This document shows positions 51,557 through 62,142 of a stretch of 64,000 nucleotides of DNA, piece by piece (position 1 is the first letter of the stretch; each line of letters opens with the position of its first letter). Below the pieces are notes generated by a model. That model was not told where the DNA came from and searched no databases. It saw only the letters and a list, made by a program, of their open reading frames with translations. Both the position numbers and the translations under genes were made by a program. This DNA is from Candidatus Tectomicrobia bacterium (lineage in GTDB: Bacteria; UBA8248), in NCBI GenBank assembly GCA_016192135.1, contig JACPUR010000037.1:1-64000 (forward strand), written 5' to 3'.

Positions 51557-52948
<1,392 letters not shown>

Positions 52949-53024
52949 GGGGAATCGGCCTCCCAAAATAAATATAAATTCTATAACATCAATCCTTTCA
53001 ATGTACATGATTTACCTGAAGGAT

Positions 53025-53443: not shown

Positions 53444-53491
53444 TCCGGCCCGTAACGAATGGCAGGAGGGGCGAGCGGTGGAGGTTTCCCT

Positions 53492-53752
53492 GTGACCTCT
53501 CGCACCCCCCCGGACGACCCCGCCTCCACTCCCAATGGCTCCGGCGCGGCGGCGCGTAAGAAAGTCGCCGAGCGCTTGCGGCAGTTGCGGGCCGCCTCGG
53601 CCGGGTGGAATTTCGTGACGGCGCCCTTGGTGGGCGGGGCGATGGGCTACGGGTTGGACTGGCTCTTCGGCACCTACCCCTGGCTGATGCTCGTGGGCAT
53701 GGCTTTCGGGTTCGTGGCCGCTTTCATCGAAGTCCTCAGGAGCGCGCGCTGA
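53492..53752 (+). CDS. atpZ: AtpZ-type F0F1-ATPase assembly/ion protein
   Basis: This 86-aa protein has two membrane helices (about 40-60 and 64-82) in WNFVTAPLVGGAMGYGLDWLFGTYPWLMLVGMAFGFVAAFIEVLRS, the AtpZ/AtpI family pattern. GTG 53492 was chosen: GGTGGAGG lies seven nt upstream, whereas ATG 53459 has no ribosome site and adds a disordered 11 residues. It heads atpZ-atpI-atpB-atpE. Confidence 0.85.
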   Translation: MTSRTPPDDPASTPNGSGAAARKKVAERLRQLRAASAGWNFVTAPLVGGAMGYGLDWLFGTYPWLMLVGMAFGFVAAFIEVLRSAR

Positions 53753-53754
53753 AC

Positions 53755-54162
53755 GTGCAGCCCTTCCCTCCGCTTCAGGAGCCCCAGCGCGTGCTCAGGC
53801 GCATCGAGCGGCTCGGCTGGCTGGTCCTGGGCGGCTCGACCCTGGCGGCGGCGCTCTTCTCGGCCAGCCTGGCGCTGGGCCTGGGCCTGGGAGGGCTGCT
53901 CGCGCTGGGGAACTTCCGCTGCATGGACCTCTACTTCGCCCGCGTATTCCACAGAGGGGCCTCGGCCCGCGTCCGCTGGTGGCACCACGCGCTCTACGCC
54001 GCCCGCTTCCTCGGCCTGATGGCCGCCGTGACGGGCGCCATCGTCTGGCTGAAGGCGTCGGCGGTAGGCGTCGCCGCGGGGCTGTCCGTCCCCCTCCTGG
54101 CCATCTCGCTCTACGGGGCGGCCGCCGCCCTGCGCGGGAAGCCGGCCTCGGCGGGAATCTGA
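53755..54162 (+). CDS. atpI: ATP synthase subunit I-like protein AtpI
   Basis: A 135-aa protein with four membrane helices (GWLVLGGSTLAAALFSASLALGLGLGGLLALGNFRCMDLYFARVF, then two more) typical of AtpI. It has been proposed to help c-ring assembly. The GTG starts 3 nt after the atpZ stop; a longer frame from 53605 runs in the shadow of atpZ. Membrane topology and position support the call more than sequence identity. Confidence 0.8.
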   Translation: MQPFPPLQEPQRVLRRIERLGWLVLGGSTLAAALFSASLALGLGLGGLLALGNFRCMDLYFARVFHRGASARVRWWHHALYAARFLGLMAAVTGAIVWLKASAVGVAAGLSVPLLAISLYGAAAALRGKPASAGI

Positions 54163-54165
54163 CGA

Positions 54166-54882
54166 ATGGAAAAATTCCACCCGTTCCTGTACCTGAGCTT
54201 CATCCCGGCCTTCGAGGAATACCCCGGCGTCCTCTACACCTGGGTGGTGATGGCGTTCCTCATCGCCGTCGCGGTCGCCGCCACCCGCGCGCTCCAGACC
54301 ATCCCCTACGGGACGCAGAACGTGCTCGAAACCCTCTTCGAGGGCGTCAACGGCTTCATGCAGGGGGCCCTCGGGCCGCAGGGGAAGCCTTACTTCCCCC
54401 TCATCTTCACCCTGGCCGTCTACCTCTACCTGAACAACGTCATCGGCATCCTGCCCGGCGCCATGGCGCCCACCAGCAACGTCAACACCAACATCGGCTG
54501 CGCCCTGACCGTCTTCTTCGCCACCCACTACATCGGCTTCAAGAAGAGCGGGCTGGGCTACTTCAAGCACTTCACCGGCCCCATCATCTGGCTCGCCCCC
54601 CTGATGGTGCCCATCGAGCTCATCTCGCACCTCGCCCGGCCCCTCTCCCTCACGCTGCGGCTGTTCGGGAACATCACGGGAGAGGAGCTCGTCCTCGGCG
54701 TCCTCATGCTGCTGTGCCTGCAGATCTTCCTCCCGCTGCCCTGGGCCATGCAGCTTTTCGCCATGTTCGGAAGCTTCATCCAGGCCTTTGTTTTCGTCCT
54801 CCTGTCCATGATATACATCGCCGGTTCGCTGGAAGGCCACGAACACGATGAGCACGGGCATGAGGGCGCGCACGCCCACTAG
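54166..54882 (+). CDS. atpB: ATP synthase Fo subunit a
   Basis: Subunit a carries ions past the c-ring. The 238-aa protein has six membrane helices and the essential Arg in SLTLRLFGNITGEELVL, plus the LNNVIGILPG motif. The C-terminus is an unusual His-rich tail (EGHEHDEHGHEG). It is followed by atpE. Subunits b, delta, alpha, gamma, beta and epsilon are not here, so the F1 part is encoded elsewhere. Confidence 0.97.
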   Translation: MEKFHPFLYLSFIPAFEEYPGVLYTWVVMAFLIAVAVAATRALQTIPYGTQNVLETLFEGVNGFMQGALGPQGKPYFPLIFTLAVYLYLNNVIGILPGAMAPTSNVNTNIGCALTVFFATHYIGFKKSGLGYFKHFTGPIIWLAPLMVPIELISHLARPLSLTLRLFGNITGEELVLGVLMLLCLQIFLPLPWAMQLFAMFGSFIQAFVFVLLSMIYIAGSLEGHEHDEHGHEGAHAH

Positions 54883-54925
54883 CATCGGCGCCCGGCCGAA
54901 AAACCAGCACAAGGAGAAGAAACGG

Positions 54926-55249
54926 ATGAAACTGCTGACGAGTCTCGGACTTGCGCTCACCGCCCTGGCGGTCCTGGCTGGCGACGCCCTCGCTGCCGCA
55001 GCGGCGGACGCCGCTTCCGGGGCCCAGGTCCTGCAGTGGAGGATCATCTCCTCCTCCTTCGCCCTGGCCATCGCCGCCGCCGCGGGCGCCTTCGCCCAGA
55101 GCCGGAGCATCGCCTCCGCCCTCGAGGGCTCGGCCCGCAACCCCGGCGCGGCCGGCGACCTGCGCGTTTCGATGATCATCGGTCTGGCCCTCATCGAGTC
55201 GCTGGTCATCTACACGTTCGTCATCTGCCTCATCATCATCCTCGGCTAG
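54926..55249 (+). CDS. atpE: ATP synthase Fo subunit c with N-terminal leader
   Basis: A 107-aa c-subunit. Residues 1-30 (MKLLTSLGLALTALAVLAGDALAAA) look like a signal peptide. The hairpin follows: helix 1 about 40-67 and helix 2 about 78-106, with loop ARNP. The ion-binding residue is Glu91 in ALIESLVIYTFVI. Gln58, Glu91, Ser92 and Tyr96 align with sodium-binding positions of the Ilyobacter c-ring, but the T67-type residue is Leu, and many proton enzymes share Gln and Glu-Ser. The ATG at 54926 has AAGGAG upstream (AAGGAGAAGAAACGGATG). Confidence 0.95.
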   Translation: MKLLTSLGLALTALAVLAGDALAAAAADAASGAQVLQWRIISSSFALAIAAAAGAFAQSRSIASALEGSARNPGAAGDLRVSMIIGLALIESLVIYTFVICLIIILG

Positions 55250-55266
55250 GCGGTTTCCGGAGGATC

Positions 55267-55292
55267 GGGGGGAGGCGCCGCCGCCTCCCCCC
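55267..55292 (+). terminator. Strong stem-loop after atpE
   Basis: GGGGGGAGGCG and CGCCTCCCCCC form an 11-bp perfect stem with a 4-nt loop, 17 nt after the atpE stop. There is no U-tract. It may end the atp transcript or set the ratio with rex. Confidence 0.55.
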
Positions 55293-55315
55293 GGCCTCCC
55301 GCCGGCGGCGCCCCC

Positions 55316-56257
55316 ATGGCAGGCAAGCGGAAGAAGGCGAGCCCGGCCCGGCGGGGCCGGGGAGCGCCCTCCGCGCGCCCCAAGGGCCCGCCGAAGCCCT
55401 CCCGCGACCTCCATCAGCGCCTCGCCGCCTACGCCTCGGCTCTGCGCGCCCTCGCGAAAGACGCCTCCGCCCGCGCCCTCCCCGCCGAGGTCGCCCGCCG
55501 CGCGGGCGTCCGCGTGGAGCGGTTCCTCGATGACCTGGGCTATTCCCCGGCCGCGGCCGGGCGCAAGGGGGGTATCCCCCTCCGGCAGCTCCAGGAGCGG
55601 CTGGGGCGCCTCCGCGAGCCGAGGTCCCGGATACCCGGCGTCACCGTGGGGCGGCTCTCCACCTACGCCCGGGTGCTGAACCGCATCGAGGAGGAAGGAA
55701 GCCGCGTCGTCTCCTCGGCCGAGCTCGCCCGCCGCTGCGGCCTGAACCCCGCCCAGATCCGCAAGGACCTGGCCTACTTCGGCGAGTTCGGGGTGCGCGG
55801 CAAGGGCTACGAGGTGCGCGACCTGAAGGCCAACCTGCGCAGCATCCTGGGCGTCACCCGGGTCTGGAAGGTGGCGCTCGTCGGGGCGGGCAACCTGGGG
55901 CTGGCGCTGCTCTCCTATCGGGGGTTCCTCGCCCACGGCTTCACCATCGATGCCGTGTTCGACAAGTTCCCGGACCAGGTCGCGCCGCTCAAGCCGGGCT
56001 GGCCGGCCGTGCGCCCGATGGAGGAGCTGGCGAAGGTGATCCGCGAGACGGGCATCCGCATCGGCATCGTTGCCGTGCCGAGCGAGAGCGCCCAGACGGT
56101 GGCGAACCAGCTCGTCGAGGCGGGGGTGAAGGGCATCCTCAACTTCGCCCCCACGCAGATCACCGCGCCGCCCCACATCAAGGTGCAGACGGTCGAGCTC
56201 GGCAGCGAGCTCGAGCGGCTGGCCTTCTACGTCTCCCAGGAGCCGGGGGCCCATTGA
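55316..56257 (+). CDS. rex: Redox-sensing repressor Rex with a duplicated winged-helix domain
   Basis: Rex represses respiratory and fermentation genes when NADH is low. Residues 113-313 are a complete Rex: winged helix (RLSTYARVLNRIEEEGSRVVSSAELARRCGLNPAQIRKDLAYFGEFGVRGKGYEV), Rossmann motif VALVGAGNLGLALL and C-terminal swapped helix. Typical Rex has 210-230 aa; here 313. Residues 35-95 align without gaps to 113-173 (about 20 of 61 identical, e.g. RLAAYASAL, AEVARRAG, DLGY), so the winged helix is doubled. The first copy has lost the RKD of the recognition helix (LDD). The neighbours are the atp operon and tsaB. Confidence 0.93.
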   Translation: MAGKRKKASPARRGRGAPSARPKGPPKPSRDLHQRLAAYASALRALAKDASARALPAEVARRAGVRVERFLDDLGYSPAAAGRKGGIPLRQLQERLGRLREPRSRIPGVTVGRLSTYARVLNRIEEEGSRVVSSAELARRCGLNPAQIRKDLAYFGEFGVRGKGYEVRDLKANLRSILGVTRVWKVALVGAGNLGLALLSYRGFLAHGFTIDAVFDKFPDQVAPLKPGWPAVRPMEELAKVIRETGIRIGIVAVPSESAQTVANQLVEAGVKGILNFAPTQITAPPHIKVQTVELGSELERLAFYVSQEPGAH

Positions 56258-57575: not shown

Positions 57576-57648
57576 CGCATCGAAACCGGTTTCCCGGATT
57601 CACCCCATCGCCCGCGGCCACCAGATGCCCTGGCGTGGAGGAAAGGCC

Positions 57649-59409
57649 TTGAGCACCAAAGCGAAGCAACCCATTCCCATCAAATCGTCCAGGATCTCGG
57701 GCGCCGAGATCATCTACCGCTCCCTCGAGCGCGAGGGCGTGAAGTACGTCTTCGGCCATCCGGGGGCGGTTCTCCTGACCCTGCTGGATCTCTTTCTCAA
57801 GAAGCACGACGTCCGGCACATCCTCACCCGCCACGAGCAATGCGCCGCCCACATGGCCGAGGGCTACGCCCGGGCGAGCGGCGGGGTGGGCGTCTGCCTC
57901 GTCACCTCGGGGCCCGGCGCGACCAACCTCATCACCGGCATCACCGACGCCTACATGGACTCCATCCCCATCGTCTGCCTGACGGGCCAGGTGTCCACCG
58001 CCATGGTGGGCAACGACGCCTTCCAGGAAGCCGACATCGTGGGGATGACCCGCACCGTCACGAAGCACAGCTACCTCGTGAGGCGCACGGCGGACCTCCC
58101 CCGGGCGCTCCAGGAGGCCTTCTACATCGCCCGCACGGGGCGGCCCGGGCCCGTCCTCGTGGACATCCCCAAGGACGTGCTCCTGGGCGAGGCCGCCTTC
58201 GATCTGCCCGAGGAGCCGGACATCCGGGGCTACAAGCCCACCACGCGCGGGCACCCGCGCCAGATCGAAAAGGTGGCGGCGGCCATCGCCGAGGCGAAGC
58301 AGCCCATCCTCTACGTGGGCGGGGGGGCCATCCACGCCGAAGCCCACGTGGAGATACTGAAGCTCGCCGAGACGGCGGACATCCCCGTGACCTACACCCT
58401 GCTGGGCGCGGGCTCCTTCCCCAGCGCGCACCCGCTCTCGCTCGGCATGCTCGGGATGCACGGCACGGCCTACGCCAACTTCGCCGTGTGCGAATGCGAC
58501 CTGCTCATCGCCGTCGGGGCCCGCTTCGACGACCGGGTGACGGGCAAGCTCTCGGAATTCGCCTCCCGGGCCAAGATCATCCACATCGACATCGACCCCA
58601 CCGCCATCGGCAAGAACAAGCACGCCGACATCCCCGTGGTGGGCGACGCCCGCCTGGTGCTCCACGAGCTCAACAAGCTCCTGAAGGCGCAGGAGCGCCC
58701 CCTCTGGCGCAAGCGCGTCGACAAGCTCAAGGAAGACTACCCCCTCGTCTTCGACGAGCAGCGCTCGCCCATCAAGCCCCAGGACGCCATCCTCACCCTG
58801 AGCCAGGAGGTGGGCGACCGGGCCATCATCACGACCGAGGTGGGCCAGCACCAGATGTGGGCGGCCCAGTTCTATAACTTCACCTTCCCCCGCCAGTTCA
58901 TCTCCTCGGGCGGGCTCGGCACCATGGGCTTCGGCTTCCCGGCCGCCATCGGCGCCGCCCTGGCGCGGCCCGACAAGCTGGCCATCGACATCGCCGGGGA
59001 CGGGAGTTTCCAGATGGTGATGCAGGAGTTGGCGACGGCGATGCAGTACGGCATCCCGGCCAAGGTCTTCCTGCTGAACAACGCCTCGCTCGGCATGGTC
59101 CGGCAGTGGCAGGACCTCTTCATGGATCGCCGCTTCAGCGAGGTGGGCCTGGAGGTCTCGCCCGACTACGTCAAGCTGGCCGAGGCCTTCGGCGCCTCGG
59201 GCCTGCGCATCACCGACCGGGAGGAGCTGCGCCCCGCCATCCGGAAGATGATCGAGACGCCGGGCCCCTTCATCCTCGACGTGGTGGTGGACCCGGACGA
59301 GCTGGTCTTCCCGATGGTGCCCGCCGGTGCGGCGCTCAAGGACATGATCGTCCGCGACGGCCGCAAGCCGAGCCTCAGCGGCAAGCTCAGCGCCCTGCCG
59401 GACAACTAG
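57649..59409 (+). CDS. ilvB: Acetolactate synthase large subunit, copy 1
   Basis: Acetolactate synthase (ThDP- and FAD-dependent) makes the precursors of valine, leucine and isoleucine. Domains: Pyr domain with catalytic Glu (HEQCAAHMAEGYARASGGVG), FAD-binding middle domain, and ThDP-binding end (GDGSFQMVMQELATAMQYGIPAKVFLLNNASLGMVRQWQDL). Length 586 aa. TTG 57649 follows GTGGAGGAAAGGCC with ideal spacing, while ATG 57625 has no ribosome site and would add 8 residues. It is the first gene of ilvB-ilvB-ilvN-ilvN-psd-pssA. Confidence 0.95.
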   Translation: MSTKAKQPIPIKSSRISGAEIIYRSLEREGVKYVFGHPGAVLLTLLDLFLKKHDVRHILTRHEQCAAHMAEGYARASGGVGVCLVTSGPGATNLITGITDAYMDSIPIVCLTGQVSTAMVGNDAFQEADIVGMTRTVTKHSYLVRRTADLPRALQEAFYIARTGRPGPVLVDIPKDVLLGEAAFDLPEEPDIRGYKPTTRGHPRQIEKVAAAIAEAKQPILYVGGGAIHAEAHVEILKLAETADIPVTYTLLGAGSFPSAHPLSLGMLGMHGTAYANFAVCECDLLIAVGARFDDRVTGKLSEFASRAKIIHIDIDPTAIGKNKHADIPVVGDARLVLHELNKLLKAQERPLWRKRVDKLKEDYPLVFDEQRSPIKPQDAILTLSQEVGDRAIITTEVGQHQMWAAQFYNFTFPRQFISSGGLGTMGFGFPAAIGAALARPDKLAIDIAGDGSFQMVMQELATAMQYGIPAKVFLLNNASLGMVRQWQDLFMDRRFSEVGLEVSPDYVKLAEAFGASGLRITDREELRPAIRKMIETPGPFILDVVVDPDELVFPMVPAGAALKDMIVRDGRKPSLSGKLSALPDN

Positions 59410-59420
59410 GAGAAACGGAC

Positions 59421-61111
<1,691 letters not shown>

Positions 61112-61115
<4 letters not shown>

Positions 61116-61615
61116 GGCAGATCTACTCGATCCTCGTGAACAACCACCCGGGCGTCCTCTCCCACGTGGCGGGGCTGTTCACGCGCCGGGGCTACAACAT
61201 CGAGAGCATCGCGGCCGGGCCCACGGAGAACACCAGCGTCACCCGAATCGTCATCGTCGCGTTCGGCGAGCAGCACGAGCTCGAGCAGATCGCCAAGCAG
61301 CTCCGCAAGCTCTACGACGTCCGCGACGTCCAGCAGGTGCCCTACAACCGCTCGGTCACGCGGGAGCTCCTGCTGGCCACGATCAACGCCGGCCCGGAGA
61401 GGCGGGGCGAAGTGTTCCAGCTCGCCACCGCCTTCGGGGCCCACGTCGTCAGCGTCTCGGACGAGAGCGTCACCCTCGAGGCGAGCGGCAACGACCACAA
61501 GATCCGCACCCTGCTCAAGAGTTTCGAGCGCTACGGCATCGCCCAGGTGGCGCGGACGGGCATGATCGCCCTCCCCTACACCGGCATGCCTTCCGATTGG
61601 GAGCCCCCGGCCTGA
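61112..61615 (+). CDS. ilvN: Acetolactate synthase small subunit, copy 1
   Basis: The regulatory subunit carries valine feedback. The 167-aa protein has an N-terminal ACT domain ([47 protein letters not shown]) and the C-terminal domain ([45 protein letters not shown]). The ATG overlaps the ilvB copy 2 stop by 4 nt (ATGA). Confidence 0.95.
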
Positions 61616-62142
61616 TGAGCGAGGAAGAGAAGAACGGCGGCCCGAGCCACACCATCGCCGTCCTCGTGGAGAACAAGTTCGGCGTCCTGGCCAAGGTGGC
61701 CAGCCTGTTCAGCGCCCGCGGCTACAACATCGACAGCCTCTCGGTGGGCACGACGCAGGACCCGACCGTCTCCCGCATCACCCTGGTGACGCGCGGCGAC
61801 GAGCGCGTCCTCGAGCAGATCCGCAAGCAGCTCAGCAAGCTCATCGACACCATCAAGGTGATGGACATGGTGAAGGAGGACACCGTCCAGCGCGAGATGA
61901 TGCTGGTCAAGGTGTCCGCCCCCCGGACCGCGCGGGCCGAGATTCTCCAGATCGTCGAGGTGTTCCGGGCGCGCATCGTGGATCTCTCGGCCGAGACGCT
62001 CATCATCGAGATCACCGGCGACGACGGGAAGATCGGCGCCTTCCTCGAGCTCCTCGCCCCGTTCGGCATCAAGGAGATCGCCCGGACGGGCAAGGCGGCG
62101 CTCAGCCGGGGGCCCAAGACCCTCAAGAGCGCCAAAGGTTGA
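61615..62142 (+). CDS. ilvN: Acetolactate synthase small subunit, copy 2
   Basis: A 175-aa paralogue with ACT domain ([47 protein letters not shown]) and the IlvN C-terminal domain ([49 protein letters not shown]). It is the closer match to ordinary IlvN ([22 protein letters not shown]). The ATG overlaps the previous stop by one nt (TGATG). Which small subunit partners which large subunit cannot be told here. Confidence 0.95.

Follow-up and report, generated by a model that had tools for sequence, protein, structure and literature searches.

Rex is a redox sensor of near-invariant architecture, known for its NADH-sensitive binding to TTGTGA-type operators. One winged helix-turn-helix (wHTH) domain per subunit and a length of about 210–230 amino acids (aa) are usual in the family but do not define it. 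How such a domain meets its target has been described in the T. maritima Rex-NAD+-DNA complex, in which DNA is recognized through Arg48 and Lys49 of the recognition helix, Lys49 touching the bases, and in which Arg12 contacts the phosphate backbone, wing Arg60 the minor groove, and helix 9 of the partner subunit rests against helices 1 and 4 of the N-domain (PMC8836258).

The stretch of DNA analysed here (the window; 64,000 nucleotides of a Candidatus Tectomicrobia bacterium) carries a rex gene that encodes a normal Rex plus a second, degenerate copy of the wHTH domain in front of it (Table 1). This layout had been proposed in an initial annotation made from the letters of the DNA, which knew of no described Rex of the kind, and a search of open-licence papers likewise found no description of a tandem Rex.

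Table 1. Features of the rex locus (positions in the window)
Feature	Position	Strand	Remark
atpE (ATP synthase subunit c), directly upstream of rex	54926..55249	+	atpI-atpB-atpE-rex order
GC-rich hairpin between atpE stop and rex ATG, 13-bp stem	55265..55294	+	three species
rex, 313 aa, tandem wHTH layout	55316..56257	+	NF003993 264.7 bits, residues 104-308
Basic Pro/Ala-rich N-terminal tail, residues 1-30	55316..55405	+	
Extra degenerate Rex-type winged-helix domain, residues 31-100	55406..55615	+	
Recognition-helix equivalent of extra copy, residues 67-74	55514..55537	+	Arg-Lys replaced by L71-D72
Wing of extra copy, residues 83-87, RKGGI (RRRGF in sister species)	55562..55576	+	wing Arg retained
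Canonical Rex wHTH, residues 105-180, QIRKDLAYFGEFGVRGKGY intact	55628..55855	+	
Rossmann NAD(H)-binding / dimerisation domain, residues 184-309 (GAGNLG)	55865..56242	+	

A canonical Rex core behind an N-terminal extension

Residues 104–308 matched the NCBIfam model NF003993 at E 5e-79 (264.7 bits, cut-off 217), and in Pfam residues 106–152 matched PF06971 and residues 184–279 PF02629, the Rossmann domain being recognized at E 2e-17 with its GxGxxG motif present as GAGNLG at 190–195. The match to T. maritima Rex in the PDB reached 5e-47. This part of the protein is alignable end to end with canonical Rex (NF003993; PF06971 plus PF02629; 7wb3, 5zz5, 3ikt) and shares with it an intact recognition helix (QIRKDLAYFG, with R149, K150 and D151), a glycine-rich wing (GVRGKGY, with G159, R161, G162 and Y165) and the NAD-binding domain; all four DNA-contact residues of T. 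maritima Rex (the equivalents of Arg48, Lys49, Arg12 and Arg60) are retained. Because the C-terminal wHTH and the Rossmann domain keep every family feature that was tested, the protein should, by analogy with other Rex proteins, bind its operator in dependence on NAD+ and let go of it in response to NADH.

Whereas canonical Rex has one wHTH per subunit, the window's Rex holds a second one within 104 additional residues ahead of the core, so that with 313 aa and two wHTH domains it departs from the usual form of one wHTH in about 210–230 aa. The extension opens with a basic tail whose first residues, MAGKRK, are shared by all three species of the genus and whose net charge (residues 1 to about 31–33) is +10 in the window and +6 in the other two.

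Evidence for a second winged-helix copy

Residues 35–95 and 113–173 align without gaps at an offset of 78 with 19 identities in 61 positions, where the initial annotation had given about 20, and the two copies share the motifs RL..YA, AE.ARR.G and DL.Y much as it had stated. Local BLOSUM62 scores of extension against core were 76, 75 and 82 in the three species and were never reached in 5000 shuffles per species (Gumbel p 7e-7, 2e-7 and 1e-8). When the three extensions were aligned by hhalign with 11 diverse Rex wHTH domains, the result was 97.4% (E 1.4e-11), against 10.8% at most in 200 column-shuffled controls. Chance similarity arising from an Ala/Arg-rich composition is ruled out by these sequence and column shuffles. 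In the profile search proposed for the extension, PF06971 matched in two of the three species, though just under its cut-off of 27 bits (G001 and G002, E 8e-6 and 3e-5, 26.2 and 24.3 bits), and gave 13 bits, E 0.5 per genome, on the window's own extension; the extra copy of the window is more decayed than those of its two sister species. A Rex wHTH profile applied to the frames upstream of every retrieved Rex gene gave matches in this genus only (3e-8, 4e-8 and 3e-4).

Modelled alone from three rows by AlphaFold2, the extension reached pLDDT 85.3 and pTM 0.73. In a Foldseek search of this model against the PDB, ranks 1–34 were all Rex chains and were followed by a sharp drop; the top matches had TM up to 0.74 and probability up to 1.00 at E 0.09–1.3, values that are weak one by one, so that it is the unanimity of the Rex matches that carries the evidence. 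The predicted fold is a Rex-type winged helix, nearest to the N-domains of solved Rex structures, and not one of the other folds that would have spoken against the initial annotation. The full-length model, also built from three rows, was poor (pLDDT 53), too poor for domain packing or quaternary structure to be judged.

Translation start and selective constraint

The first ATG is the sole in-frame start ahead of the core that is common to all three species, no ATG, GTG or TTG between it and the core being shared in frame, and a GTG common to them at 120/121 would remove part of helix 1. A start near residue 105 in the relatives had been named as an observation that would undo the tandem layout; the two other species keep the same ATG (MAGKRK...), at a matching place behind atpE, and a late start is rejected, there being no shared in-frame start and the window's GTG111 reading GTC in G001. 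GC3 of the extension domain is 0.88–0.92, of coding type. A sequencing or frameshift artefact is ruled out by the three species, their separate assemblies and a dN/dS below 1.

Pooled dN/dS was 0.52 in the extension (95% 0.31–0.80), 0.06 in the core wHTH (0.01–0.14) and 0.10 in the rest of the gene; as the first value lies below 1, the extension is under selection, though far weaker than that on the core. A ratio about nine times as high as in the core wHTH, where dS is similar, also fits little function. It would suit a remnant of a duplication in the course of decay, still translated, folded and tolerated but hardly affecting repression, if at all; the loss of the recognition residues and the greater divergence of the window's own copy would speak for this too. 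This explanation is possible but rather doubtful: the ratio is significantly lower than 1, a value reached or exceeded in 0.2% of bootstraps, the domain, the start of the tail and the frame are kept in all three species with indels of codon size only, and a confident fold is still predicted.

Distribution

The same fusion was sought in relatives, as had been suggested, and was present in both other species of the genus, so that three of three species of one Ca. Tectomicrobia genus, each from a separate assembly, have the tandem layout. Two public records, both labelled Candidatus Tectomicrobia bacterium, contain it: MGDP01000132.1 (RIFCSPLOWO2_12_FULL_69_37) and JACPCT010000290.1. The layout was not seen in the other 15 genomes of the phylum sample (18 genomes, all of one family); eight of these 15 have a Rex N-domain above the Pfam cut-off, always single, and the remaining seven, in which there is no such match, are uninformative either way. 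The single-wHTH Rex proteins of other genera in the phylum (G006–G016), about 62% identical in the core, differ from those of this genus in that the second wHTH is absent, and the tails of G008 and G014 are short and without the domain.

Beyond the phylum, a PF06971 survey of six other phyla (586 genomes) yielded about 361 genomes with a match, among which there was no tandem in one frame. Where a genome had several matches, these lay at separate places and not in one frame, as checked in the largest set, and a second domain was present in none of 18 Rex genes with unusually long open frames that were read. That the layout is unique to the genus holds for the phyla surveyed and within the sensitivity of the search, since a copy decayed like that of the window (E 0.5) would escape it.

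Homology, the fold prediction, the conserved start and the restriction to one genus among the genomes checked together indicate that the ancestor of the genus gained a second Rex N-terminal wHTH, which sits in front of the existing one and behind the basic tail.

DNA-contact residues and proposed role

As the initial annotation had noted, the first copy lacks the RKD of the recognition helix, the corresponding positions being L-D-D in the window and A-E-D in both sister species; the equivalent of Arg48 is thus L/A/A and that of Lys49 D/E/E (window first). The equivalents of Arg12, on helix 1, and of Arg60 are still Arg in all three. Invariant residues occupy 1 of 10 positions in the recognition-helix equivalent and 30 of 59 in the remaining extension, a comparison that rests on three sequences and in which variable loops equal the recognition helix in variability. 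They fall mainly in helices 1, 2 and 4, and the helical hydrophobic core persists.

The loss of the recognition Arg-Lys pair and the scarcity of invariants around it speak against the extra copy reading the same operator as the core does. An altered reader is conceivable: a four-headed Rex dimer might recognize a longer operator or a second half-site, or bridge two sites. For this, the domain is homologous to a DNA-binding domain, its net charge is positive in all three species (+7, +7 and +2), and the basic wing and tail are kept, but of its helices the recognition helix is the least conserved, an acidic residue stands where Rex has its base-reading Lys, and no extended operator was found. 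Such a reader is considered unlikely, and the same low weight is given to a four-wHTH dimer whose additional pair contacts DNA next to the operator or spans two operators; were it true, binding by this redox repressor would be longer or looped and its response to NADH would differ. Judged from the residues, a module that does not read bases is favoured over a reader of a longer operator.

The clustering of invariant residues in helices 1, 2 and 4 could also point to protein interaction, either a contact within a dimer or tetramer or the docking of a regulator, and in T. maritima Rex it is on helices 1 and 4 that the partner's helix 9 packs (PMC8836258). Because these residues also make up the core of the domain itself, their clustering lacks specificity, and no partner is known; this role is regarded as improbable.

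The preferred reading, to which a probability of about one half may be assigned, is that of a normal NADH-sensing Rex with an accessory or scaffold wHTH that lacks base-specific recognition and is not a second operator reader. The extra copy would pack on the main DNA-binding domain and, together with the Lys/Arg-rich tail, might add weak, sequence-independent contacts to the DNA flanking the operator, with the tail as a further nonspecific anchor.

Operator search, locus and origin

In the window there was no Rex-type site above chance, and no convincing Rex operator emerged from the three genomes. TTGTGA-N6-TCACAA sites outnumbered those of a reversed control 23:1, 28:6 and 19:4; many, however, have no A/T next to the half-sites and look CRP/FNR-type, and a regulon built on them was rejected, the genes beside the sites giving no clear picture. 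The shorter palindromes TGTGA-N6-TCACA exceed the reversed control by about 5 to 23 fold in the genomes G000, G001 and G002 and resemble operators of CRP/FNR type more than Rex sites.

The gene order is atpI-atpB-atpE-rex-tsaB-like, with two ilvB-type genes and then ilvN further on. In G014, which belongs to another genus of the family, rex likewise follows atpE directly but has a single wHTH, and the same holds for G038 and for L052 and L062 of another phylum; the position of rex is thus old, and the gain of the extra domain came afterwards. The distance between the atpE stop and the core RKD is 507–510 bases in the genus, compared with 319 in G014. As for the arrangement atpI-atpB-atpE-rex itself (53459–56257), rex directly behind atpE was also observed in L024, L011, L052 and L062, of at least two other phyla, which suggests that Rex and the ATP synthase F0 operon have long been linked.

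A 70-column tree could not trace where the extra copy came from. On average the extension is closest to the genus's own core (20–23 identities), with G026 and G038 nearly as close, and internal duplication is the simplest origin, though not a proven one. The basic tail is probably older than the extra domain because basic tails that lack the domain are also present in the family, as in G008. An internal duplication of the Rex wHTH confined to one lineage, with the base-reading residues lost in one copy, would offer a natural experiment in accessory-domain gain by repressors, its reach being limited to one uncultured genus, and direct comparison is possible with a sister genus, whose gene at this locus has a single wHTH.

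Several further features of the neighbourhood were recorded. The hairpin ahead of rex, present in all three species, has no T-run and a z of only -1.35 for its composition, and is possibly an RNA-stability or attenuation element. On the minus strand, 51557–53008 encodes a Sigma-54 activator with an AAA+ domain and a Fis-type HTH, the N-terminal ~160 residues of which have no Pfam match at E 0.001. Downstream, 57625–61115 holds two consecutive large subunits of acetolactate-synthase type (TPP enzymes), with the small subunit at 61597–62142.
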